Position numbers and translations under genes: made by a program. Below the pieces are notes generated by a model. The model was not told the origin of the DNA and did not search any database. It saw nothing but the letters and a program-made list of their open reading frames with translations. From the NCBI GenBank assembly GCA_021803245.1, contig JAJZLT010000042.1, positions 1-43,080 on the forward strand: a stretch of DNA of 43,080 nucleotides, given 5' to 3'. Source of the DNA: Microcaldota archaeon (GTDB lineage Archaea > Micrarchaeota > Micrarchaeia > Micrarchaeales > CABMGC01). Below, one piece after another: positions 6,405 through 9,830 of this stretch (within the stretch, counting starts at the first letter, position 1; every line of letters begins with the position of its first letter).

Positions 6405-8597
6405 TCAGTCCATGAACTGCTGCGGCTTAGGCGGCTCCGGATCCTGTCCTTTCCTCTTTCTTATCTCCCTGACTACTTTGTCCTGGAGCTCTTTCGGGAG
6501 CCTCTCGTAGCCGGCATACTCAGGGTACCAAATGGCCCTTCCTTGCGTCAGGCCGCGCATGTCATTTGAGAAACCTTTTATTACTTCAGCTACAGGCATC
6601 TTGGCAATAAGCGTAGCCTGCTCTGCTTCCTGCTGTATATCAATTATCTGCCCTCTCTTCGAGTTTAGGAAGCTTATGACATCTGAAAGATACTCCTGCG
6701 GTATGTTTATCGTGAATTTCTGCTTCGGCTCCAGAAGCACAACGCCGGCAGTTAGCATTCCCGCGTAGATCGGCCTTCTCATAGCAGGTATTATCTGCGC
6801 AGGACCCCTGTGGACAGGATCCTCGTGTATTGTCGCATCCGTTATGAGCACTTTTATTCCTGTGCACTTTTCCCTCGCCAGAGGACCGTCTTTCATTGCC
6901 TCCTCAAATCCCTCTATAAGCAATTCCATCACTTCGTCAAGGTACTGCACGCCGTGCGTCGCATCTATGAGAATGCTGTTGTTAGCTATATCTACTACGC
7001 CCTTCGCTTCATCTCTCTGCATGCCCGCCTTTATGAGTAGGTCTATATGTGTTTTGCCCTTTGGTTTGCCGTCTTTAAGCGCGCCGCTGTCGAGAAGATC
7101 CAGTACTCCCTGCTCCAGAGGCATGACAGTAATATAGAAGCGTGAATGCCTGTTGGGCGTCTTGCCTTCTATGTCCTTTGCCTCTTTTTCGATAGTTTCC
7201 TTGTAAACGACAATTGGCTCGCTTGTGGTAATTGGCACGTGAAATTCATCTCTTACTTTTGTTTCTATGACTTCAAGATGCAATTCACCCATTCCGCTTA
7301 TCAGGTGCTCGCCTGTTTCCTGGTTAAGCTCCACCTGAAGAGTCTGATCCTCTTTCGAGAGTTCCCTTAGCGCCTCTATAAGCTTCATTAAGTCTCTTGT
7401 GTCCTTTGCCTCTATGGCCTTGGTAACTACCGGCTTTGAATAGTGCTTTATCTGCTCGAATGGCTCTATTCCATTCTCGCTCGCAGTGTCGCCTATTGAA
7501 ATATTCTTCAATCCTACAATGCCCGCGATGTTGCCCGCTGAGATCGAATCTACCAAGACACGCTCCGGGCCCATAAAAAGGCTGACCTGCTGAATGCGTT
7601 GCTTGTCAGGATCTCCTGAAATATAAACCTCGCTGCCTTTCCTTACAGTGCCAGAGAAGACCCTTCCTATCGCTACTTCGCCGCTGTGCTGATCGTAAGT
7701 TACTCCGAAGATAACCATGTTTATCTTCGCGTTTGGATCAACAGTGGTCATCGCCTTTCCATCCTCACTGCCCAGATCCCCATGCCATAGACGCGGTATC
7801 CTGTATGGCTGCGCCTGCGCCGGATTGGGCAGGTGCTCTATCATCATTGTAAGTGTGGCCTCGTCTATAGGCGCAACTTCCTGCAGCTTCTTCTCATCGT
7901 TTGCTGCAGTTAGTTCGAAGATCTGCTTGAACGTTACCTTGTATTTTTCCATTATCCTTGCAGATATTGCCCATTTCTTGTATGCTGATCCAAAGCAGAC
8001 TGCGCCAGACTCTACGCTTAGCTGCCATTTCTCTGCAAACTCTTCCGGCGCATAGCTTCTGATCATCTTGTTTATGTCATTTATAAGCTTGAGCAATCTC
8101 TCGAATGTCTGTTCCTGTGTAAGCTTGAGTTCATTAAGAAGCCTGTCTACCTTGTTCACGAAAAGAACCGGCTTTGCCCTCTCCTGCAGGGCCTGTCTCA
8201 GGACTGTTTCCGTCTGAGGCATGATTCCCTCCACAGGATCGACCACAAGAACTACCCCGTCAACTGCCCTCATTGACCTTGTTACATGGCCGCCGAAATC
8301 AACGTGCCCGGGCGTGTCTATAAGATTTATTATGTAATCTGCACCTTTGTAATTGAAGGCTAGCGAGATATCTGCCGATTTAATTGTCATTCTCCTGTCT
8401 TTTTCTATTGCTTCGTAATTAGTGTAAAGCGCTTCTCCTGCCACATTCTTGGATATTATGCCTGCGCGGGCGAGCAGTGAATCTGTCAGCGTGGTTTTGC
8501 CATGATGAACATGCGCTATTATGGCGACGTTCCTTATCTGTGCGATATCCTTCATCAATCGCGCTACTTCCTCAGCAACGAACTCTTTCCTTACCAT
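6405..8597 (-). CDS. fusA: Translation elongation factor 2 (aEF-2)
   Basis: 730 aa; DTPGHVDFGGHVTRSMRAVDG, VNKVDRL, TGEHLISGMGELHLEV, diphthamide motif HEDPVHRGPAQIIPAMR. Confidence 0.98.
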   Translation of the reverse strand: MVRKEFVAEEVARLMKDIAQIRNVAIIAHVHHGKTTLTDSLLARAGIISKNVAGEALYTNYEAIEKDRRMTIKSADISLAFNYKGADYIINLIDTPGHVDFGGHVTRSMRAVDGVVLVVDPVEGIMPQTETVLRQALQERAKPVLFVNKVDRLLNELKLTQEQTFERLLKLINDINKMIRSYAPEEFAEKWQLSVESGAVCFGSAYKKWAISARIMEKYKVTFKQIFELTAANDEKKLQEVAPIDEATLTMMIEHLPNPAQAQPYRIPRLWHGDLGSEDGKAMTTVDPNAKINMVIFGVTYDQHSGEVAIGRVFSGTVRKGSEVYISGDPDKQRIQQVSLFMGPERVLVDSISAGNIAGIVGLKNISIGDTASENGIEPFEQIKHYSKPVVTKAIEAKDTRDLMKLIEALRELSKEDQTLQVELNQETGEHLISGMGELHLEVIETKVRDEFHVPITTSEPIVVYKETIEKEAKDIEGKTPNRHSRFYITVMPLEQGVLDLLDSGALKDGKPKGKTHIDLLIKAGMQRDEAKGVVDIANNSILIDATHGVQYLDEVMELLIEGFEEAMKDGPLAREKCTGIKVLITDATIHEDPVHRGPAQIIPAMRRPIYAGMLTAGVVLLEPKQKFTINIPQEYLSDVISFLNSKRGQIIDIQQEAEQATLIAKMPVAEVIKGFSNDMRGLTQGRAIWYPEYAGYERLPKELQDKVVREIRKRKGQDPEPPKPQQFMD

Positions 8598-8602
8598 TAT
8601 TA

Positions 8603-9397
8603 TTACCTTGCCCTCTTTGCTATTCTCTCAACATCAGTTCTCTTTTTGATAGCATAGCTTTCTGAGGAGTTTGTTGCAGCAAGTATAAGTTCATCTGCAA
8701 GCGCATCGGCAACGCTTTTCCTCTTGTTAAACGAACCGATTATTGCAGAGAGTGCTATATTTTTTAGCGCAACATCTACGCGCCTCTGCGCGCTTATGCC
8801 AACCGCTACGTTATATGAAATGCCCCCATATCTGACCCTTGTCGTGTCTTCTATAGGTGCGGCATGCTCGATTGCATCAACAAAGACCTGAACAGGATTC
8901 TTCCCTGTCTTCTTGCTTATCTTCTCAAATGAGTCTTCAACTATATGCATTACCTTGAGCTTCTTCCCCTGGAGCCTGCCTTCCGTCCTTATTACTTTGC
9001 CGCCTATCTTCTTCCCTGTGCCGCCGCGCATCAGCTTATTCATTAGCCTCTCTATTATGCTTATATGCGCATTATAATAAGACTGGAATTTCCTGCGCCC
9101 GAAAATGTTTGGATATTCGTAGTTTCCGAATCGTATGTAGCTGGATATGCTCTGATCCTCCACTTTTACATCATTGAGCGGATATTTCCCAAAGAGAAGC
9201 ACATTGCCCCCATGGACTACATCCGGTTCACTCTTGGACTTGGATGCAGCATCCTGCACGGCATAAGGCGATGCATCCTGCGGACCGGATGCTTGCTGTT
9301 TTTGAGGTGCCCGGCGCCTCCGCTGCAATTTCTCTGCTGACTCTGCAGCAACAGTTTCCTCTTTTTGCTCCTCTGACTTTACCTCTTCAACTGCCAC
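8603..9397 (-). CDS. rps7: Ribosomal protein S7 with about 70-aa N-terminal extension
   Basis: NPVQVFVDAIEHAAPIEDTTRVRYGGISYNVAVGISAQRRVDVALKNIA...ADELILAATNSSESYAIKKRTDVERIAKRAR. Confidence 0.96.
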   Translation of the reverse strand: MAVEEVKSEEQKEETVAAESAEKLQRRRRAPQKQQASGPQDASPYAVQDAASKSKSEPDVVHGGNVLLFGKYPLNDVKVEDQSISSYIRFGNYEYPNIFGRRKFQSYYNAHISIIERLMNKLMRGGTGKKIGGKVIRTEGRLQGKKLKVMHIVEDSFEKISKKTGKNPVQVFVDAIEHAAPIEDTTRVRYGGISYNVAVGISAQRRVDVALKNIALSAIIGSFNKRKSVADALADELILAATNSSESYAIKKRTDVERIAKRAR

Positions 9398-9401
9398 TCA
9401 A

Positions 9402-9830
9402 TTACCTCTTTGGTTTCTCTTTCTTACCCTTTACTACTTCGAAAAGGTCTGCGCCGTTAACTGCTATTACTCTGTATTTAAGACCAGGTATGCTGCCCAT
9501 CTGCCCTCTCTGCGAGCCGCCCATTCCCTGTATGGTAACCTCATCGTGCTCCTCGATCATATTTATTGAACCGTCATAAGGCACGTAGGCACCTACTACC
9601 TTGCCATTCTTTACCAACTGCACCCTGACGCATTTTATAAGGCCAGAGTGTGGCTGCTTCTGCTGAAGGACAAATTTCTGAAGCACCAGGGCGCGAGCCA
9701 TTGGAACTGTACCTACAGGATCGTACTTCTTCTTCAGCTTAAAGTATCTCCGCTTCCAGGCCTTATTAAGCATCCTCTGCTTCTTTCTCTTTTTTACAAG
9801 CTCCTTGGCTGCAAATTCTCCGTTTGGCAA
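9402..9830 (-). CDS. rps12: Ribosomal protein S12
   Basis: YDPVGTVPMARALVLQKFVLQQKQPHSGLIKCVRVQLVKNGKVVGAYVPYDGSINMIEEHDEVTIQGMGG...GSIPGLKYRVIAVNG. Confidence 0.96.
   Translation of the reverse strand: MPNGEFAAKELVKKRKKQRMLNKAWKRRYFKLKKKYDPVGTVPMARALVLQKFVLQQKQPHSGLIKCVRVQLVKNGKVVGAYVPYDGSINMIEEHDEVTIQGMGGSQRGQMGSIPGLKYRVIAVNGADLFEVVKGKKEKPKR

Follow-up and report, generated by a model that had tools for sequence, protein, structure and literature searches.

The EF-2 encoded in the window (the whole 43,080-nucleotide stretch of DNA that was analysed) carries His31, Asn60 and Arg69 at three positions of its GTP site that are Asp, Asp and Gly in ordinary archaeal EF-2, and comparison of archaeal EF-2 proteins showed that, in several lineages of archaea, these three positions have changed together as one block. 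With moderate confidence, we regard the protein as a working micrarchaeal EF-2 whose GTP site appears to have been rebuilt as a unit, and in which the need for a monovalent cation would be relaxed or absent. A further-reaching reading is put forward only tentatively, namely that it is one of several independently evolved ribosomal translocases that would need no cation; the His of the P-loop, when protonated, would do the job of Asp and K+ together as a built-in histidine finger, tuned by pH and not by K+. The predicted metal site of archaeal EF-2 is subject to lineage-recurrent rewiring, a kind of loss that is already known in other factors. No prior report of a rewired metal site in archaeal EF-2 was found in a limited literature search, which does not prove absence.

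The gene was identified as archaeal EF-2 by its match to TIGR00490 (971 bits against a cut-off of 738.45, over residues 9-721 of 730), and its product has the five-domain EF-G/EF-2 architecture (GTP_EFTU, D2, EFG_III, EFG_IV and EFG_C in Pfam). It is the third gene of an rps12-rps7-EF2 cluster, and the L7Ae and S28e genes come next (Table 1). Re-reading of the codons reproduced exactly the P-loop AHVHHGKT, with its CAT codon for His at 8505-8507, and the switch I motif RRMT at 8385-8396 (R68-R69-M70-T71) that had been named in the original prediction; the Mg2+-coordinating Thr that it described as retained is present as Thr71. Its description of the rest of the protein as normal was borne out for the other G-domain motifs, in which K34, T35, T71, D94-TPGH98 and N148-K-V-D151 are kept, and for the predicted diphthamide target loop of domain IV (HEDPVHRGPAQ, residues 591-601, H591 to H596), which is invariant among relatives. 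That description overlooked a third co-changed residue, Asn60. The AlphaFold model of the protein had a pLDDT below 50 over residues 45-75, so that side chains in switch I cannot be placed from it.

Table 1. Position of the EF-2 gene, its neighbours and its GTP-site motifs in the window.
Feature	Position	Strand	Basis or remark
EF-2 gene	6405..8597	-	730-aa intact ORF; TIGR00490; single full-length match in assembly
Ribosomal protein S7 gene (rps7)	8603..9397	-	PF00177; operon context
Ribosomal protein S12 gene (rps12)	9402..9830	-	PF00164; operon context
P-loop (G1) AHVHHGKT, residues 28-35	8493..8516	-	ORF translation
His31 codon CAT, replacing Asp	8505..8507	-	Codon read; conserved order-wide
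Asn60 codon AAT, replacing switch I Asp	8418..8420	-	Total co-variation with His31
Switch I RRMT, residues 68-71; Arg69 replaces Gly	8385..8396	-	Codons read and comparison
Switch II DTPGH, residues 94-98, canonical catalytic His98	8304..8318	-	ORF translation, relatives

The role of cation ligand that the original prediction gave for the P-loop Asp was found in two related factors. In aIF2gamma, a second Mg2+ has D19 (by its side chain) and G44 (by its carbonyl) as its two apical ligands; the Arg finger of RasGAP superposes on this ion, and the D19A substitution slows GTP hydrolysis 8.5-fold (PMC4357699). In eIF5B, D533 and G555 bind K+/Na+ (PMC4509514). Residues 31 and 69 of the window EF-2 are the counterparts of these two pairs. 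In EF-2s with Asp in the P-loop (D-types, as opposed to the H-types with His), residue 60 is also Asp; it belongs to an 'LDF' stretch of switch I and lies 11 residues before the Mg2+-binding Thr71. The same spacing separates Asp51 from Thr62 in EF-Tu, where both residues touch the phosphates/Mg2+ when GTP is bound (PMC4329189), and residue 60 was taken as the counterpart of Asp51. A survey of translational GTPases reported cation-site losses in eIF2gamma, EFGII, Ria1, Snu114, eEF2 and aIF5B, the Gly counterpart of residue 69 being among those lost in eEF2 and aIF5B; archaeal EF-2 is not listed there (PMC4342817). Measured against the cation-assisted translational GTPases of the Kuhle and Ficner type, the window EF-2 keeps the catalytic and Mg2+ residues (His98, Thr35 and Thr71) but has His31 for the P-loop Asp and Arg69 for the switch I Gly. 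These replacements also differ from the Ala and Asn of the GAP-dependent, eIF2gamma-like type.

The change had been presented as a possible one-off, for which an alignment with relatives was proposed; it proved instead to be order-wide and to recur in other phyla. When 301 genomes of the phylum were scanned for the motif, the His P-loop was present in 147 of the 164 genomes of the order (70/79 in the window's family and 77/85 in its sister), whereas all 137 genomes from other families lacked it. The nine genomes of the window's family that lacked the His motif comprised three with Asp (G006, G020 and G021) and six without any match. Except in three genomes, every EF-2 read from the order combined His with RRMT, RKMT, RRLT or RRIT in switch I, while relatives outside the order had Asp, nearly always with RGIT. 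His31 is encoded by both CAC and CAT in these 147 genomes and is retained across order-wide divergence, so that it is due neither to chance nor to the sequencing error that the original prediction had allowed for.

The His-motif scan with one genome per species returned at least 117 stretches, and all 117 among the matches listed were archaeal EF-2. They came from Micrarchaeota, Thermoplasmata, Nanopusillus/Nanobsidianus/Nanoclepta, an Aenigmatarchaeota and other DPANN records. Archaeal EF-2s were sampled from four phyla, and the H-type clades outside Micrarchaeota fell in Thermoplasmatota, Nanopusillaceae and their relatives, Aenigmatarchaeota and another DPANN group. In both Thermoplasmatota and Nanoarchaeota, most EF-2s do not have the His form, and neither His nor RRMT is common in EF-2 at large. 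Many of the H-type records apparently come from acidic habitats. Acidophily is unlikely to be the sole cause, since some H-types are groundwater DPANN (L062 and L089) and the EF-2 of an acidophilic Sulfolobus (8hl1) has Asp with RGIT.

Residues 31, 60 and 69 were the only columns that differed fully between H-type and D-type proteins in all six sister-group comparisons. Over 274 EF-2s, the blocks at 31-60-69 were D-D-G (101), D-D-S (1), D-D-Q (1), H-N-nonG (159) and H-W-nonG (12); some of these loci represent the same genome reached by two routes, and the counts for distinct segments only were 100 D-D-G, 2 D-D-nonG, 132 H-N-nonG and 10 H-W-nonG. No mixed block was found, and His31 was never combined with Gly69 (0/274). 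Sites 31 and 69 had been named beforehand, in the original prediction and the structural literature; the match at site 60, although total, is post hoc, as it emerged from a scan of all columns. The proposal of altered cation coordination is well supported at the level of sequence: both residues that it named are second-cation ligands and changed together in several lineages.

The three sites differ in their freedom. Residue 31 was His in every H-type EF-2 sampled. At residue 60, the H-types of Micrarchaeota and Thermoplasmatota had Asn, and those of the Nanopusillus, Aenigmatarchaeota and DPANN lineages had Trp. Residue 69 was Arg, Lys, Leu, Glu or Cys among H-types and Arg or Lys in all of those from Micrarchaeota. 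Two D-type EF-2s, L184 (RSMT) and L225 (RQMT), have lost the Gly and kept Asp31 and Asp60. They are possible intermediates toward the H-type block, and they suggest that the Gly was lost first and the Asp second.

The history of the block was followed on a tree of 86 EF-2s from which residues 25-76 were left out. The H-type groups sat inside their own phyla, and the D/H character required six changes, each of them together with a change at residue 69. Five independent pairs on well supported branches agreed and none was opposite (sign test, p = 0.06, the minimum for five pairs); when eight changes were placed at random by branch length, not one of 200,000 draws hit five or more of the six branches. 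A single origin of the three Trp60 lineages, the Nanopusillus group included, was rejected (AU test, p = 0.0018), but one for the Aenigmatarchaeota and DPANN pair was not (p = 0.36). These results point to four or five coupled gains of the H block.

The Trp60 lineages (L038, L062, L089 and L252) also resemble one another in the nearby sequence of switch I, with M-F/L-T-W and, following the Thr, YGA; convergence or the exchange of a short G-domain segment could account for this. The three Asp genomes of the window's family, G006, G020 and G021 (L028, L188 and L023), have the full D-D-G block together with neighbouring ancestral residues (GKST and EQARGITIKA). They were nested in the H clade on the EF-2 tree, and a tree with them outside was not rejected (p = 0.44). 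Their state may be explained by coupled reversion, by a segment regained through recombination, or by two gains of the block within the order.

A canonical second EF-2, which the original prediction had named as a way in which it could fail, was found neither in the window's assembly (about 80% complete), which gave one full-length match, nor in 16 H-type genomes of other phyla. Each of these 16, including the finished genome of Nanopusillus acidilobi, had exactly one EF-2, and the near-complete relatives G003, G029, G042, G048 and G058 had one full-length EF-2 each. The presence of one EF-2 per tested H-type genome indicates that the H-type protein is the working translocase. In eight H-type genomes in which the other translational GTPases were read, these mostly retained the Asp, indicating that the change is specific to EF-2. 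The sarcin-ricin core AGTACGAGAGGAAC was the same in H-type and D-type genomes, among those where it was found, and a compensating change in the sarcin-ricin loop was rejected for this reason.

Several other factors showed variation of their own. The aIF2gamma proteins of the window's genome, genus and family (L291, L293, L294 and L300) keep the P-loop Asp and have RSMT in switch I, so that Ser replaces a Gly described as strictly conserved in this factor among archaea (PMC4357699). The aIF5B of Nanopusillus acidilobi (L295), a genome with an H-type EF-2, has lost both cation-site residues, with GHVGAGKT and EAGEMTQ as against GHVDHGKT and EAGGITQ. An aIF2gamma from Aenigmatarchaeota (L290) has the P-loop GHVEHGKT, with Asp changed to Glu, and keeps the switch I Gly (RGLT).

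A mechanism can be proposed from these observations. The P-loop Asp of ordinary EF-2, through its side chain, and the switch I Gly, through its carbonyl, keep a second cation (K+/Na+, or Mg2+ in the case of aIF2gamma) beside the beta and gamma phosphates, and the switch I Asp equivalent to Asp51 of EF-Tu contacts Mg2+/phosphates. In the window EF-2, this trio is His31, Arg69 and Asn60, and Thr35, Thr71, Lys34 and His98 are unchanged. The Asp-Gly cage would thus be gone and the cation no longer held. The imidazole of His31, protonated or as a hydrogen-bond donor, may replace both the Asp and the cation at the gamma phosphate, at the sarcin-ricin loop or at both, and the loss of two carboxylates (31 and 60) may balance the charge of the site once the cation is gone. 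The outcome would be a translocase that is independent of the monovalent cation or far less tuned by it. An active role of His31 is favoured because the His is invariant in H-types, through both of its codons, while residue 69 varies freely.

Relaxed constraint is the alternative to which we give most weight, although we consider it unlikely. If the second cation were dispensable on the ribosome, the Gly could have been lost first in some lineages, Asp31 and Asp60 could have drifted, and His31 would be passive. The loss of the Gly from L184 and L225 with both Asp residues intact fits this explanation, as do the micrarchaeal aIF2gamma proteins that lack the Gly and keep the Asp. Because the Gly was lost without His in L184, L225, eEF2 and aIF5B, tolerated drift may account for some of the change. 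In addition, EF-Tu work cited in PMC4509514 and PMC5311926 reported that the cation itself contributes little to catalysis on the ribosome; its loss might then cost nothing, which counts against the proposed mechanism. Drift would be expected to scatter residues, however, and only His is found at position 31 across at least four lineages, although Asp codons are one step from Asn, Tyr, Ala, Gly, Val and Glu as well; residue 60 of H-types is likewise solely Asn or Trp. Less probable again is activation in trans, with a positive charge supplied by a ribosomal protein, by rRNA or, in Micrarchaeota, by the protein's own Arg/Lys69. The precedent is eIF2gamma with eIF5, for which modelling put an Arg finger where the second cation sits in aIF2gamma (PMC4357699), and Arg or Lys69 is present in all micrarchaeal H-types. 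The unchanged sarcin-ricin core stands against it, and a general arginine finger at residue 69 was rejected as the common solution, since the other H lineages have Leu, Glu or Cys at this position.

A switch to a different metal, with His29, His31 and His32 (HVHH) forming a soft-metal or second divalent site and a transition metal in place of the cation, appears very improbable. Three His within four P-loop residues are suggestive, and a divalent ion occupies the same place in aIF2gamma (PMC4357699), but His29 and His32 already occur in ordinary D-type EF-2, no further metal ligand was seen in the sequence, and the residues at positions 69 (Arg/Lys/Leu/Glu/Cys) and 60 (Asn/Trp) are not metal-binding as a set. 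We give almost no credence to an assembly error, a pseudogene or a non-essential EF-2 beside a canonical copy. A second copy could be missing from an assembly of this completeness, but the 730-aa frame is intact and lies inside the rps12-rps7 cluster, the state is common to 147 genomes of the order, and a single EF-2 was found in the 16 H-type genomes and the five near-complete relatives. The reading we favour remains a working EF-2 with a GTP site rebuilt as a unit.

It is disputed whether translational GTPases truly use the monovalent cation as a cofactor. In several archaeal lineages the entire cation site of the sole translocase has been replaced, and some relatives within one order have the ancestral site, either kept or regained. 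The contrast between H-types and D-types is a natural swap experiment, through which the part played by the cation can be tested directly by comparing matched wild-type pairs and by exchanging the three residues. A ribosomal motor that runs without its customary helper cation may thus already exist in nature.

The archaeal EF-2 structures 5h7j and 8hl1, the latter from Sulfolobus acidocaldarius, were among the best structural matches to the window EF-2. They resemble it in domain plan, catalytic His, Mg2+ Thr pair and diphthamide loop, and differ in having Asp31 with RGIT (8hl1 reads AHVDHGKT ... RGITV) where the window protein has His31, Asn60 and Arg69. Eukaryotic eIF2gamma has lost the same Asp/Gly cation pair (PMC4357699, PMC4342817); however, it is a different factor, in which the replacements are Ala and Asn, so that Asp became Ala and not His, and it uses the GAP eIF5 (PMC4357699) and has its site of action outside the ribosomal GTPase centre. 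Human Snu114/EFTUD2, the spliceosomal eEF2 paralogue, has His at the same P-loop position as H-type EF-2 (GHLHHGKT), but it keeps the switch I Gly (ERGVGIK, a motif without the Mg2+ Thr) and is not a translocase. In yeast, Snu114 hydrolyses GTP only very weakly (PMC7192624); the P-loop His of the human protein is therefore as compatible with lost activation as with replacement, which counts against the proposed mechanism. Bacterial EFGII shares the double loss with H-type EF-2, since its P-loop Asp is reported to be replaced by Gly and its cation residue in switch I not to be conserved (PMC4342817); it differs in being a bacterial paralogue and in its substitution, which is Gly and not His.
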